From assembly GCA_903930535.1 (NCBI GenBank), contig CAIYYX010000170.1, forward strand, positions 62,001 through 126,000: a stretch of 64,000 nucleotides of DNA, given 5' to 3'. Under the pieces are notes generated by a model. It did no database searches, was not told the origin of the DNA, and worked only from the letters and a program-made list of their open reading frames with translations. A program made the position numbers and the translations under genes. Each line of letters begins with the position of its first letter. Within the stretch, counting starts at the first letter, position 1. The DNA comes from an uncultured Sterolibacterium sp. Its GTDB lineage: Bacteria > Pseudomonadota > Gammaproteobacteria > Burkholderiales > Rhodocyclaceae. This document shows, one piece after another, positions 39,430-45,544 of this stretch.

Positions 39430-39553
39430 TTCATCCAGTTGCCCTCACCGCGCCCAGCCTTCATCACGACTGGACGGGTCGATAAGATATGCTTGCGCGA
39501 TGCGCCGGGCTACCGTATGTTTAGCATCTCAGGCCGTCTCGAAGCGAGCTTAC

Positions 39554-40654
39554 ATGGACATCGACAAGTTAGTAAACCCTTATATACCTGACCGCCAGGC
39601 CCTGCAGGAGTATATCGACGACCTGAGCGAACAGATCCCGCTCATAGAGAAGAACATCGCTGGTCTCAAGCGCGCACCCCAGGATGCTTTGCTGATAGCC
39701 GAGTTGTTCCGAGCTCTGCATAACGTCAAGGGCAACGCCGCGATGTGCAAAGTCGAGATCGGCGTGGCTATCACCCATCCGGTAGAGACTCTGATGGTGC
39801 GGCTAAGAAACAGGGAGATAGGATTTTCCGACCTGTTCGCCGAAGCGCTCCTGCTCGCCATGGACCGGCTCGAACTCTCCCTCGAGGCACTGGTCAGCAA
39901 TCGCCCCCTCACCCAGTTGAGGCTGGTCGAACTCATAGGCGGATTGGAGAACCTGGCCCAGGCTGATGCCGTTACCCTCGACGAACGCTCGGCGAAGTTA
40001 ATCGAGGCGGTCACCGGTTTCCTGCCCGCCGCCGCAAACCGCGGGGTCAAGCCACGCGCCTCCGAGATCACCCGCAGTCACGAGAATGTCGCCGCCGATC
40101 TGCGCTTCTTCCGCTCGCTGGCGCTGCAATTCGAGGCCCGCTCGCCTCTGTTTAATGGCCGCAGCCAGCGTTTGCTGCACTTCGCGCTGGAGACAAACCA
40201 GACTGCAGGCAACCCCGTCGACCCGGCTCAATTGGAAGCGGCCATCTACATGCACGATATCGGCATGATGTTCCTGCCTGAGTCCGTTTGGCTCAAGTTG
40301 GGCAAACTCTCGGAGGAAGACAAAATTCTGCTGCAAAGCCATGCCGCCCTCGGCGCGGGTCTGCTCGAACGCATGGAGGGCTGGCAAGCCGCCGCAGAAA
40401 TGGTCGCGCAACACCACGAGATGCACGACGGCGGCGGTTATCCGAAGAAGTTCAGCGGGGAGGAGATCTGCGCCGGCGCGAAAATCCTGGCGATCGTCGA
40501 CACCTTCGAGGCCGTCACCCTGAAGCACAGCCACCGTGGCCAGTCGCGCTCAATCATCCGCGCCATCGCCGAGGTCAACGCCTGCGACAACCAGTTCGCC
40601 CCGGAATGGATACTGCCCTTCAACGCCGTGATCCGGCGCATGGTAGAGGCTTAG
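39554..40654 (+). CDS. Hpt-like plus HD-GYP protein
   Basis: A 366-residue protein. Residues about 10-110 resemble a histidine phosphotransfer domain, with LHNVKGNAAM placing the candidate phospho-His at residue 56. Residues about 175-360 form an HD-GYP domain: HD at 234-235 and HHEMHDGGGYP at 287-297. HD-GYP enzymes hydrolyse cyclic di-GMP to pGpG/GMP. The usual HDIGK motif is HDIGM here, so the conserved Lys is missing. The ATG at 39554 is chosen because the preceding 18 codons do not look like the family and have no RBS; an RBS for 39554 is also weak. Confidence 0.8.
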   Translation: MDIDKLVNPYIPDRQALQEYIDDLSEQIPLIEKNIAGLKRAPQDALLIAELFRALHNVKGNAAMCKVEIGVAITHPVETLMVRLRNREIGFSDLFAEALLLAMDRLELSLEALVSNRPLTQLRLVELIGGLENLAQADAVTLDERSAKLIEAVTGFLPAAANRGVKPRASEITRSHENVAADLRFFRSLALQFEARSPLFNGRSQRLLHFALETNQTAGNPVDPAQLEAAIYMHDIGMMFLPESVWLKLGKLSEEDKILLQSHAALGAGLLERMEGWQAAAEMVAQHHEMHDGGGYPKKFSGEEICAGAKILAIVDTFEAVTLKHSHRGQSRSIIRAIAEVNACDNQFAPEWILPFNAVIRRMVEA

Positions 40655-40791: not shown

Positions 40792-41136
40792 TTAGCTTAA
40801 TCCCAGGAGTTCGACCTCGAACACGAGCGTGGCATTGGGCGGAATCACTCCGCCTGCGCCTGCCGCGCCATAGCCAAGCTGCGGCGGGATGGTGAGCTTG
40901 CGCACGCCCCCGATTCTCATCCCCAGCACGCCTTCGTCCCAACCGGCAATCACCCAGCGACTGCCCAGCGGAAACTCGAATGGCTCGTTGCGGGTTCTGC
41001 TTGAATCGAACTCACTGCCATCGTCAAGCCAACCGGTGTAATGAACCGAAACGGTCTGGCCTGTACCTGCTTCGTCGCCGCTGCCGACGCTGATGTCCTC
41101 GATGACGAGACCGCTTTCCGTGGTGATCTGGCTCAT
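40792..41136 (-). CDS. FKBP-type peptidyl-prolyl cis-trans isomerase
   Basis: A 114-residue single-domain FKBP that speeds prolyl isomerisation in the cytoplasm; no signal peptide is present. The core has [18 protein letters not shown], then [12 protein letters not shown], then [19 protein letters not shown] and ending FEVELL. All active-site aromatic positions expected from small FKBPs appear present. It is convergent with the HD-GYP gene and lies downstream of the GGDEF-EAL gene. Confidence 0.94.
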
Positions 41137-41170: not shown

Positions 41171-43795
41171 TTATGCACCAAGTCCCAGCGCCGCCGGTTT
41201 GAAGAGTTGCGGCGAAGCTTCCGGCGGCATGGGATCGGAGAAAATGCCGCCCTGAAAATTACGGCAGCCGAGGTTCATGAGAGCGGCGAGTTGGCTATCC
41301 GAATCCACTCCCTCGACAAGCACCTTGCGGCCGAGGGCGCTCGCCAGGGCGAAGATGGCTGCGACCATGGCAGAGTCCTCGCGATTGTCGCCAAGATCTC
41401 GAACCAGGCTCCTGGGAATGTGAATCGAGTGCCCGGGGAAGCGCTTGAGATAGGTCAAGCTGGAGTAGCCTGTGCCAAAGCCATCGATTGCCAGCCTCAC
41501 CCCCATATCGGCGAGTTGCCTAAGCTTTGTCAGGTTTTCCTCGACATCTAGCAGCAATGTCGATTCAGCTATCCTGAGTTCGAGCAGTGCGGGTGGCTGG
41601 GCGGTTTCCTTGATGATGGCGCCTATGCTTGCGACCAGTTCCTTCTGACGAAATTGCAGCCGAGAGACAGGGACTGACACCGGCAGGCAGGGATAGCCCT
41701 GCGCCTGCCATTCGCCATTCTGGCGGCAGGCCTGCCTCAGTATCCAATCGCCGAGTGGCAGGATCAGGCCAGTTTCCTCCGCCAGGGGCATGAACTCACC
41801 GGCCTCGATCAAGCCCGCCTCCGGATCCTGCCAGCAAACCAGCGCAGCCATGCCGCACACGAGCTTGCGCTGGTAATCGATTTGCGGCTGGAAATGAAGC
41901 AGGAACTGATTGCTCTCGAGTGCGGCACGCAGCTTGTGTTCGAGATTGAAGGATTGCATCGCCTGCTCGTTCATCTTCGCCGTGAAGAACTGGAAGTTGT
42001 TGCGGCCGCTCGCCTTGGCGTGGTACATCGCCGTGTCGGCGTTCTTCATGAGTTCATAAGCCTCGCTGCCGTCTTCGGGGAAAATGCTGATGCCGATGGA
42101 AGGCGTGGCATGCAACTGATGCCCTTCCAGTGTCGCGGCTGTGGCCAGTGCGGCGATGATTTTTTCCGCCACCAGCGCCGCGTCGTCGGGACGCTCGATC
42201 TCGTGCAGCACCACCACGAACTCGTCGCCGCCGAGCCGCGACACTGTATCGACGGCGCGCACCACCTGGCGCAAATGGTCGGCGACATGCTTGAGGAGCA
42301 GGTCGCCGACAGCATGGCCGAGGGTGTCATTGATGTTCTTGAACCTGTCGAGGTCGAGGAACATCACCGCCAGCCGCTGGCGCGATCGTCCCGCGTGGGT
42401 CAGCGCCTGATCAAGACGGTCATGAAGCAGGCTGCGGTTGGGTAGACCCGTCAGCGCATCATGATGCGCCAGGTGCCAGACACGCTGCTCCGCCTGCAGG
42501 CGTTCGAAAATCTCATCCTGCAACTGCACATTGGTGGTGGCCAGTTCGGCGGTTCGCTCCACCACGCGCCGCTCCAGTTCGTCGCGGGCGCGCAGCAGCG
42601 CCTCTTCTGCCTGGTGACGCTCAGTCACGTCCTCGAGGATCCAGATCAGGTCAAGGCCGGCGCCGGGAGAGTCGGTCTTGCGCCCGGTGGCGCGCAACCA
42701 GAATAGACTGCCGTCCTTGCGCCGCAGGCGCAGCTCGCTGACATTGGTATTGCCTTGTCGGATCGCCTCGTAAGCGCGCGCGCCGAAGTCGTCGTATTCG
42801 CCGACAGTCGGAAAGAGCAACAAGGTCGAGTTTCCGACAAGCTCCCCTTCGGGGTAACCAAACATGTCTTCGAGGCGATGGTTGCAGCGCTGAATGACGC
42901 GGTTTCTGACAAACAGGATGGCAACCGCGGCATTGTTGAATATCATCTCCTGCTCTTCGAGCGCAGCGCGGATACGCTCTTCGGCAAGCTTCTTCTCGGT
43001 GATGTCCTCGATCAGACAGACCGAGCCCAAGACCGGCTGACTCTGGTCGAAGGCGCGCGCAAACAGGCGTCCCCAGAAGGAGGATCCGTCCTTGCGGCGA
43101 AAAAGCTGCTCGCGCCGATGCATATTGCCCTGCGCCAGGTCTGAATAGGAGTCCGCGCCGAAGCCGACATAGTCCTCCTCCGAGAAATACCAGGGCCGGG
43201 TGGACTGCCCGACCATCTCTCCCGGGCTATAGCCGAACAGTTCTTCCATGCGGCCGTTGCAGCGGACCATCTTGCGCTCGCGCAAGACGACAATGCCGAT
43301 CAGTGCCGTCTCGAAGATCGCTCCCAACTCCCGGATGGACTGCTCCAGCGCCTGGCGAATCATCCGGTCTTCGGTGGCATCCTCGATGATCCAGATGGTG
43401 CTGTCCTGGGGGTTCCCCGGATCGATGGCCTTGGCCGAAACACGGCACCAGAAAAGCGAGCCATCCTTGCGCTTGAACTCGGCCTCGGTATGAAAGGCCG
43501 AACCCGCATTCAGGGCAGGCACAGCAGCGTGGCCGATCTGCTCATAAATTTCTGCGGAAGGATAAAGGTCCACGCCGGACAGTCTAATGAACTCGTCCTG
43601 CGCATAACCGAACATCTCGGCACAGAGTGCATTGCTTGCCACCAGCTTGCGATTGCGCGAGAAAAGAATGCCGACCGTGGCATTGTCCAGGATAGCCTGC
43701 TGCTCGAGCAGGATCGTGCGCAGCTCGCCCGCGCTGAGATGGTCTAGGCCTGCTTGCGCTGCCTTGGGCATTGCGGATCTATCCTGCGCAACCAT
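41171..43795 (-). CDS. PAS-PAS-PAS-GGDEF-EAL protein with degenerate EAL
   Basis: An 874-residue signalling protein from the ATG at 43795. It has three PAS domains (about 35-150, 160-275, 285-395), a GGDEF domain with intact GGDEF at 522-526 and an RAVD I-site five residues before its RL flank. A C-terminal EAL domain covers about 610-865. The EAL motif reads AAL (650-652), the substrate Arg is Cys (ALVCW), LELEI is LELRI, the DDFGTG motif is DGFGTG and the KIDR motif is HIPR. So cyclase activity is expected and phosphodiesterase activity is not. It starts one base after the upstream reductase gene. Confidence 0.88.
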   Translation of the reverse strand: MVAQDRSAMPKAAQAGLDHLSAGELRTILLEQQAILDNATVGILFSRNRKLVASNALCAEMFGYAQDEFIRLSGVDLYPSAEIYEQIGHAAVPALNAGSAFHTEAEFKRKDGSLFWCRVSAKAIDPGNPQDSTIWIIEDATEDRMIRQALEQSIRELGAIFETALIGIVVLRERKMVRCNGRMEELFGYSPGEMVGQSTRPWYFSEEDYVGFGADSYSDLAQGNMHRREQLFRRKDGSSFWGRLFARAFDQSQPVLGSVCLIEDITEKKLAEERIRAALEEQEMIFNNAAVAILFVRNRVIQRCNHRLEDMFGYPEGELVGNSTLLLFPTVGEYDDFGARAYEAIRQGNTNVSELRLRRKDGSLFWLRATGRKTDSPGAGLDLIWILEDVTERHQAEEALLRARDELERRVVERTAELATTNVQLQDEIFERLQAEQRVWHLAHHDALTGLPNRSLLHDRLDQALTHAGRSRQRLAVMFLDLDRFKNINDTLGHAVGDLLLKHVADHLRQVVRAVDTVSRLGGDEFVVVLHEIERPDDAALVAEKIIAALATAATLEGHQLHATPSIGISIFPEDGSEAYELMKNADTAMYHAKASGRNNFQFFTAKMNEQAMQSFNLEHKLRAALESNQFLLHFQPQIDYQRKLVCGMAALVCWQDPEAGLIEAGEFMPLAEETGLILPLGDWILRQACRQNGEWQAQGYPCLPVSVPVSRLQFRQKELVASIGAIIKETAQPPALLELRIAESTLLLDVEENLTKLRQLADMGVRLAIDGFGTGYSSLTYLKRFPGHSIHIPRSLVRDLGDNREDSAMVAAIFALASALGRKVLVEGVDSDSQLAALMNLGCRNFQGGIFSDPMPPEASPQLFKPAALGLGA

Positions 43796-43796
43796 T

Positions 43797-44672
43797 TCAG
43801 TTGCGCCTGCAGGATGCTTCGGCGACGCGCAGCAAGACCGCTGCATCCATACGACCCCAGCCCATTCCCATCAGGGCATTCAACTGCTGCCCCACCTGCG
43901 CCGCAATCGGCAACGGGCAGCCCAGGCGATGCGCCTCGTCCAGAAGAATGCCAAAGTCCTTGTGATGCAGCCGTGCCTCGACGCCCGCGGCAAAGTCGCG
44001 CTTCACCATGCGGGCGCCGAACACATCCAGAACGCGCGAGGCGGCGGAACCCGCTGCGAGCGCAGCGTGCACCCGCGCCGGATCGACGCCTTCGGCAGCG
44101 GCCAAACAAAGCGCCTCGGCGCTCGCGGCAATCGCCGCCACCATCACCATCTGGTTGCAGGCCTTTGCCACCTGCCCCGCACCCTGTCCCCCGACATGCA
44201 CTATGGTCTTGCCGAGGAGTTCAAACAATGGCCTCACACGATCCAGATCTGCCGCGCTGCCACCGACCATGATAGACAGGGTGGCATTCTGCGCCCCGAC
44301 CGGCCCGCCCGAGACCGGCGCGTCAAGCATGCCCATGCCTTTTCCCGCCAGCCGCACCGCGATATCGCGACTCGTTTCCGGTGCGATGGTGCTCATATCG
44401 ACATGGATCGCCCCCGCAGCGAGGCCATGTATCAATCCATCCTGCCCGAGAGCGAGCCTTGCGACATCCTCGCCCGCTGTGACCATCGTGAATACGATCT
44501 CTGCCTGCTGCGCCAGTTCGGCCGGGCTGGCGTAGGCCACCGCACCCGCCTCCACGAGCGGCGCCATGCTTTGCGGCCTTCTCCCCCACACCGCCAGTTC
44601 GTGACCGGCACGCAGCAAGTGTTCCGCCATCGGCCGCCCCATGGCACCCAGACCGATGAAACCGAGCTTCAC
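43797..44672 (-). CDS. 3-hydroxyisobutyrate dehydrogenase-family reductase (copy 2)
   Basis: A 291-residue NAD(P)-dependent beta-hydroxyacid dehydrogenase. The Rossmann motif GFIGLGAMGRPMAEHLLRAG, substrate loop DAPVSGGPVGAQNATLSIMVGG and catalytic-Lys motif GQVAKACNQ are intact. Tartronate semialdehyde reductase (GarR/GlxR) or 3-hydroxyisobutyrate dehydrogenase are both possible. It overlaps the preceding paralogue by 4 bases (ATGA); the two are tandem duplicates of equal length but clearly diverged. Confidence 0.88.
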   Translation of the reverse strand: MKLGFIGLGAMGRPMAEHLLRAGHELAVWGRRPQSMAPLVEAGAVAYASPAELAQQAEIVFTMVTAGEDVARLALGQDGLIHGLAAGAIHVDMSTIAPETSRDIAVRLAGKGMGMLDAPVSGGPVGAQNATLSIMVGGSAADLDRVRPLFELLGKTIVHVGGQGAGQVAKACNQMVMVAAIAASAEALCLAAAEGVDPARVHAALAAGSAASRVLDVFGARMVKRDFAAGVEARLHHKDFGILLDEAHRLGCPLPIAAQVGQQLNALMGMGWGRMDAAVLLRVAEASCRRN

Positions 44673-45544
44673 TCCTGGCCGCTCATTTTTTCCAGCAGCT
44701 TCAAAACGGAAATCGAGTCTTCCTCGCCCATACCCGACCCGACCAGGGCATTGAACATCTGCGCTGTCGCCGCTGCGCTGGGCAGCATCAGACCGAGGCT
44801 ATGCGCCTCTCCCATGACGATGCGCAAATCCTTCTGATGCATCCAGGCCTTGAAGCCCGGCTTGAAGTTGCGATCGAGCATCCGCTGGCCATGGTTTTCG
44901 AGGATCTTGCTGTAGGCAAAGCCGCCCATGAGCGCCTCGCGCACGCGCGCCGGATCGACGCCACTCTTCCTGGCGAAATTGAACGCTTCCGCCACCGCCG
45001 CGACGCCGACTCCGGTGAGGATCTGATTGCATGCCTTGGCCACCTGCCCCGCGCCCGATCCGCCGATCAGCGTCACCGACTTGCCGAGCTTCTCGAACAG
45101 CGGTTTGACCTTCTCGAAAACATCGGCCTCGCCCCCGACCATGATGGTCAGCGCGGCATTGATGGCGCCCGTCTCGCCGCCGGACACCGGCGCATCGAGA
45201 AAACTCATGCCGCGTTCTTTCAGCTTGGCCGCGATATCCCGTGCCGCGGTCGGGGCGATGGTGCTCATGTCGGCCACGATCATTCCCTTGGCAGCGCCCT
45301 CCACGATGCCGCCTTCGCCCAGTACGACTTGCGCCACGTCGGGTGCGTCGGCCACCATGGTGAATACGATTTCGGCGTGTTTCGCCACTTCAGAGGCGCT
45401 GATATGCGCCCGGGCATTGACCTCGCGGAAAGGCTCGAGCGAAGCCGGACGGCGCGCCCACAAATGCAGATCATGACCGGCGCGCGCCAGATGCAATGCC
45501 ATGGGCCGCCCCATCAGGCCGAGTCCGATGAATCCTATTTTCAT
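44669..45544 (-). CDS. 3-hydroxyisobutyrate dehydrogenase-family reductase (copy 1)
   Basis: A 291-residue paralogue of the next gene, with GFIGLGLMGRPMALHLARAG, DAPVSGGETGAINAALTIMVGG and GQVAKACNQ. The GETGA form of the substrate loop is common in tartronate semialdehyde reductases (glyoxylate breakdown), whereas the second copy has GPVGA, so the substrates may differ. A D-2-hydroxyacid dehydrogenase with a possible glyoxylate/hydroxypyruvate role occurs about 11 kb away. Assignment within the family is uncertain. Confidence 0.88.
   Translation of the reverse strand: MKIGFIGLGLMGRPMALHLARAGHDLHLWARRPASLEPFREVNARAHISASEVAKHAEIVFTMVADAPDVAQVVLGEGGIVEGAAKGMIVADMSTIAPTAARDIAAKLKERGMSFLDAPVSGGETGAINAALTIMVGGEADVFEKVKPLFEKLGKSVTLIGGSGAGQVAKACNQILTGVGVAAVAEAFNFARKSGVDPARVREALMGGFAYSKILENHGQRMLDRNFKPGFKAWMHQKDLRIVMGEAHSLGLMLPSAAATAQMFNALVGSGMGEEDSISVLKLLEKMSGQE

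Follow-up and report, generated by a model that had tools for sequence, protein, structure and literature searches.

The window, a stretch of 64,000 nucleotides from a contig of an uncultured Sterolibacterium sp., hosts on its reverse strand a gene encoding a protein (hereafter the window protein) in which three PAS domains are followed by a GGDEF and an EAL domain (Table 1). The internal ATG at Met18 is also plausible as start codon, since it sits just past the stop of the upstream gene at 43797. In a Pfam scan the three PAS stretches claimed in the original prediction were recovered, and the GGDEF and EAL domains scored well above cut-offs. Substrate and metal motifs of the GGDEF domain are intact, and so is the RxxD inhibitory site, present as RAVD, again as predicted; the GGDEF signature, earlier numbered 522-526, corresponds to residues 539-543. 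No MASE1 domain was found in the Pfam scan, only about 40 residues lie ahead of the first PAS domain, and there is no obvious transmembrane stretch in the protein, the best 19-residue hydropathy being 1.8, within the EAL domain.

The gene lies between an FKBP-type isomerase gene, which adjoins it in 7 of the 10 stretches compared from relatives, and a pair of dehydrogenase genes, one of which adjoins it in 8 of the 10. The two dehydrogenase genes (43797-45544, reverse strand) are related and adjacent members of the 3-hydroxyisobutyrate / tartronate-semialdehyde reductase family, and at least one is kept in those 8 stretches. A tRNA synthetase and a gene encoding Hpt and HD domains are also present in three of the four same-genus stretches. 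The latter gene, found near the cyclase gene at 39500-40654 on the forward strand of the window, encodes Hpt and HD_5 domains with an HHExxDGxGYP motif, by which we take the product to be HD-GYP-like, and possibly a c-di-GMP phosphodiesterase. Hpt-HD_5 genes reside near the cyclase gene also at loci L136, L138, L139 and L145; a scan of these four for the motif returned it for L145 only.

Table 1. Features of the cyclase locus, in window coordinates
Feature	Coordinates	Strand	Residues	Remarks
PAS-PAS-PAS-GGDEF-EAL(degenerate) gene	41171..43846	-		891 aa from ATG 43846
Alternative start ATG (Met18)	43795	-	18	874 aa; possible true start
PAS1	43352..43717	-	about 44-165	Pfam, boundaries hand-set
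PAS2	42983..43351	-	about 166-288	Pfam, boundaries hand-set
PAS3	42602..42982	-	about 289-415	Pfam, boundaries hand-set
GGDEF domain, intact	41996..42469	-	460-617	Pfam 175 bits
RAVD inhibitory site (I-site), intact	42248..42259	-	530-533	
GGDEF motif, intact	42218..42232	-	539-543	
EAL domain, active site lost	41231..41935	-	638-872	Pfam 197 bits
AALVC for EALxR	41834..41848	-	667-671	
P726 for metal-ligand Asn	41669..41671	-	726	
R758 for metal-ligand Glu	41573..41575	-	758	LELRI for LELEI
D788 kept, G789 for second Asp of DDFGTG	41480..41485	-	788-789	
H809-I-P811 for K-I-D	41414..41422	-	809-811	
E845 kept, D848 for second Glu of EGVE	41303..41314	-	845-848	
FKBP-type peptidyl-prolyl isomerase	40792..41136	-		neighbour gene
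3-hydroxyisobutyrate-dehydrogenase-like gene	43797..44672	-		neighbour gene
Second dehydrogenase, tartronate-semialdehyde-reductase-like	44669..45544	-		score slightly below NCBIfam cut-off

Erosion of the EAL active site

Nine substitutions alter the EAL half of the window protein at active-site positions: E667A, R671C, N726P, E758R, T760A, D789G, K809H, D811P and E848D. All the changes listed in the original prediction (AAL, Cys for Arg, LELRI, DG, His/Pro, Asp for Glu) are real; N726P, which removes a metal-ligand Asn, and T760A are further losses. H809, P811 and D848 presumably occupy the positions of K316, D318 and E355 of RocR. Residues named for catalysis, substrate and metal binding in RocR (PMC7911125) are E175, Q161, R179, N233, E265, D295, D296 and E352. 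Five of these eight are replaced in the window protein (E175 by A, R179 by C, N233 by P, E265 by R, D296 by G), including four of the six metal ligands (E175, N233, E265, D296) and the substrate R179; three (Q161, D295, E352) are kept, which falls short of what defines a catalytic EAL phosphodiesterase. The domain had been described as fully degenerate. The loss of the active site stands, the word "fully" does not, because Q653 (RocR Q161), L669, E761, D788 (D295), E845 (E352) and Q865 are retained.

The joint loss of several catalytic and metal positions, claimed at the outset, exceeds chance. Of 92 EAL positions invariant in nine orthologs, 24 differ in the window protein; taking each ortholog in turn as the odd one out, 1 to 13 changes were counted per 93-105 positions. 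By the same test, only 4 of 176 positions differ in the PAS domains, linker and GGDEF domain. Changes are concentrated at the active site, where 8 of 13 columns conserved at 95% or more are altered, versus 4 of 30 other columns (p=0.0025), on a broad residue list drawn up partly when the finding was already known. For the eight literature residues alone the contrast is weak (5 of 8 versus 6 of 23 columns conserved at 98% or more, p=0.09). Some positions off the active-site list, invariant in 114 EAL domains, have changed as well (P682A, F814L, A844V); the 114 are the alignment minus the query, L013, L008 and L017, the last being a duplicate of L043 by scores.

That the EAL domain still works as a phosphodiesterase, with metal ligands supplied by neighbouring positions, is very improbable. 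Two acidic ligands, D788 and E845, are left, but to judge from the alignment E667, N726, E758 and D789 are all gone, and the predicted structure superposes on standard EAL domains. An assembly or sequencing artefact is just as hard to believe. The source assembly is fragmented (289 contigs), but six of the nine changed codons are two bases away from the codons of the same-genus ortholog L014, the changes are spread across 182 codons of open frame, the closest relatives of the EAL domain are still the orthologs, and gene order is conserved.

Distribution of the loss among homologs

The best whole-protein matches of the window protein among 60 relatives are in G003, G004 and G001 (73%) and G002 (66%), all genomes of the same genus; beyond these, family members are found down to about 53% identity over nearly full length. 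All four same-genus orthologs (L014-L017; L043 is apparently the same record as L017) have intact EAL sites. Out of 122 loci, 118 could be scored (L009-L012 gave no match), and removal of L013 and L008, which are the query's own locus, left 116 homologs, none of which features the loss pattern of the window protein. Isolated departures were noted: in L020 and L053 the second E of EGVE is D or S, and in L101, L121 and L122 the Asp of KID is A. The only departure at the literature residues among the 116 homologs is that of L074, where D296 is replaced by N and E352 by Q.

The search was widened to 395 family genomes, an even draw from a larger group, and gave 64 non-self matches. The 64 homologs examined are 63 of these plus L209 (G006); the match in G543 was omitted, as it stops at residue 634 and does not reach the core of the EAL domain. 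In three of the 64 the sequence breaks off within the EAL domain, in L210 and L211 at contig ends and in L196 at a TAG, so that 61 cover it; L201, L203 and L207 (44-47% identity) are probably not orthologs. The GGDEF domain is kept in all 64, and the EAL domain is intact in 60 of 61, the exception being L182. Among the 60, consensus residues are found at all 15 positions in 56, two have the second E as D, and two have EVL. L196 (G514:C132:12364-14211) is an ortholog in which the EAL motif reads EA-stop and the remaining EAL domain is intact, because of either a nonsense mutation or an assembly error.

The window protein belongs to an orthologous group of PAS3-GGDEF-EAL proteins in its family, in which both catalytic sites are intact in nearly all members examined. 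Since the same-genus orthologs and 60 of 61 family homologs are intact, the loss of its EAL site is confined to its own lineage.

Selection and fold of the EAL half

Amino-acid branch lengths leading to the window protein are 0.20, 0.16 and 0.12 substitutions per site for the three PAS domains in order, 0.10 for GGDEF and 0.56 for EAL. Speed alone is not diagnostic, since the EAL domains of L043 and L018 are also fast (0.55 and 0.53) and their sites are intact. Selection was assessed by a joint codon model (own script, 7 sequences, shared branch lengths, 14 active-site codons). At the active-site codons omega is 0.564 on the branch of the window protein versus 0.004 in the background (p=7e-12), and 0.564 does not differ from 1 (p=0.15). 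Outside the active site the EAL domain has omega 0.183 versus 0.092 (p=0.0009), still far below 1 (2dl=75). GGDEF is unchanged (0.046 versus 0.052, p=0.68); the PAS value is lower than background (0.067 versus 0.115, p=0.014), and is left uninterpreted. With L016 or L043 as foreground, omega is 0 at the active site and about 0.11 in the rest. With about 3 neutral substitutions per codon the branch of the window protein is a long one, which makes these omegas rough and lets them average the periods before and after the loss. Per-domain fits with free branch lengths gave no significant difference for the EAL domain, either entire (0.133 versus 0.087, p=0.23) or minus the active site (0.104 versus 0.090, p=0.69); the reason is that the free branch length rose to 4.6-5.3 in EAL, compared with about 2.5 for GGDEF and PAS. 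We prefer the joint fit, as a single gene has a single branch, yet the separate fits still count against it. The EAL body outside the active site is under purifying selection, partly relaxed, on the branch of the window protein.

The same figures can be read differently. The EAL domain might be a useless passenger left to drift, the apparent constraint being a residue of the time before the loss. The doubling of omega in the remaining EAL domain, and the changes at invariant positions off the active-site list, are in line with such decay. In contrast, a single neutral fraction for the entire EAL domain, as a uniform neutral period would produce, is rejected with 14 sites (p=0.00018) and with the 8 literature sites (p=0.0035). 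Rejection does not depend on the tree: L043 groups with the outgroups in the main topology and with L014-L016 in the IQ-TREE protein tree (supports 64-70), and on the latter p is 0.00025 and 0.0043, respectively. Moreover, the EAL domain crossed a long branch with neither stop nor frameshift, and 26 of the 30 non-active-site columns conserved at 95% or more are intact. We regard passenger decay as rather unlikely.

The original prediction that the fold is retained in spite of the catalytic loss is supported by sequence and model. In an AlphaFold model residues 444-885 have a mean pLDDT of 90.5, and the EAL half superposes on the crystal structure of the MucR EAL domain with an rmsd of 1.4 A, on MorA with 1.7-1.8 A, and, taking the best entries, on the EAL domains of LapD (3pjt) and FimX (3hv8) with 2.1 and 2.4 A. 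The underlying alignment (59 of 79 usable homologs plus the query) is made almost entirely of intact EAL domains and the model leans to their fold, so that these values indicate compatibility with the EAL fold, not proof of it.

It had also been suggested that the domain became a c-di-GMP sensor. In a receptor of the LapD/FimX type the EAL domain would no longer cut c-di-GMP, but bind it and signal to GGDEF. Matched by spacing and motif, the retained Q653, E845 and Q865 correspond to Q463, E653 and Q673 in the FimX contact list of PMC7288161. However, the pocket Arg at position 671 (R179 in RocR, R481 in FimX by motif and spacing) is Cys, and A682 replaces a Pro invariant in the 114 EAL domains, maybe P491 of FimX, the register being uncertain by one. 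All eight LapD-like homologs, drawn from 143 genomes, keep the Arg and the equivalents of N726 and E758 (RocR R179, N233 and E265), and the window protein has lost all three; none of the eight exceeds the NCBIfam LapD cut-off, hence they are LapD-like only. The intact GGDEF domain also speaks against a receptor of this type, which we consider improbable. The same genome encodes one of the eight LapD-like homologs (L155, G000:C241:996-2951; 517 bits to NCBIfam LapD, below cut-off) with a receptor-type EAL domain, in which the motif is EIL, the Arg is kept, and DQ replaces DD.

Known parallels and a second loss

E. coli DgcE (YegE) offers the best parallel; LapD and FimX are less apt. According to PMC6510439, DgcE carries a MASE1 domain, three PAS domains, an active GGDEF domain and an EAL domain devoid of key residues. 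This EAL domain is reported to be inhibitory; when it is deleted, output goes up and larger oligomers become more stable, and the authors suggest that it interferes with productive oligomerisation. The window protein likewise has three PAS domains, an intact GGDEF domain and a recognisable EAL domain stripped of catalytic residues. It differs in lacking the N-terminal membrane MASE1 domain, and in that the EAL domain of DgcE is more eroded at key positions. Scoring 277 bits against a cut-off of 1135 with NCBIfam PRK09776 ("diguanylate cyclase"), which we take to be the YegE family, the window protein is of a DgcE-like kind, not a DgcE ortholog.

LapD and FimX share with the window protein a degenerate EAL domain with the fold kept, but the GGDEF domain of LapD is degenerate too (RGGEF, according to PMC3032553, which compares FimX). 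The NCBIfam LapD score of the window protein is 126 bits against a cut-off of 1020. The closest solved GGDEF-EAL tandem modules (4rnh, 5m3c; 44-46% identity) belong to MorA and to PA0575, presumably RmcA, but in the alignments both have intact EAL active-site motifs. The E. coli proteins BluF and RflP (degenerate EAL) and CsrD (degenerate GGDEF-EAL), as listed in PMC5635695, similarly use the EAL fold without the full catalytic set; the EAL domain of each, however, has no intact GGDEF domain beside it, and the surviving key residues are unlike those of the window protein.

The reading that we favour, at a probability of roughly 60%, is that the window protein is a PAS-controlled diguanylate cyclase in which a non-catalytic EAL domain has been retained as a structural or regulatory part. 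In this lineage the phosphodiesterase site was given up, while selection continued to act on the GGDEF cyclase and the PAS sensors and, with less stringency, on the EAL body. Phosphodiesterase activity is presumably zero and the cyclase probably active, in a soluble protein. The EAL domain would regulate it as a dimerisation or (auto)inhibitory module setting GGDEF pairing, by analogy with what has been proposed for DgcE.

L182 (G407:C134:10514-13051), from another genus, resides in the same gene neighbourhood as the window gene. It has S for the Asn, K for E265, DE for DD (D296), Q for K316 and A for E352; the EAL motif, the substrate Arg R179 and Q161 are retained. The six homologs with EAL domains closest to that of L182, all from its own genus, have intact sites, so this loss is independent of that in the window lineage. 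With L182 as foreground (8 sequences; a tree with supports of 25-58 at most inner nodes) omega is 0.435 versus 0.006 at the active site, and 0.286 versus 0.077 in the rest of the EAL domain (p=6e-10), well below 1; on the same branch neither GGDEF (p=0.09) nor PAS (p=0.12) shows a significant change. For the entire EAL domain the test does not reject a single neutral fraction, of about 0.25 (p=0.24 and 0.13 with 14 and 8 sites, respectively): uniform decay over about a quarter of the branch fits equally, and the EAL domain of L182 may be in plain decay, a point in favour of the passenger hypothesis. This lowers our confidence that selection has converted a conserved two-site sensor into a one-way cyclase on at least two independent occasions, the EAL body being kept as an allosteric part. 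We regard such repeated conversion as a tentative idea, with the odds rather against it.

Proteins with one live and one dead catalytic domain are a kind already known; the comparative context is here unusually good. A literature search on catalytically dead EAL domains beside GGDEF retrieved nothing relevant, and we do not claim that recurrent loss is absent from print. Many GGDEF-EAL proteins have one dead domain, and the manner and timing of the change from enzyme to regulator have been a matter of guesswork, based on heavily eroded examples like DgcE. Intact same-genus orthologs in the same gene context, along with an independent second loss, make proteins from before and after the change directly comparable. 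If the repeated conversion is true, two end states would be represented, a scaffold in the window lineage, where the binding Arg is lost, and a possible receptor in L182, where it is kept.
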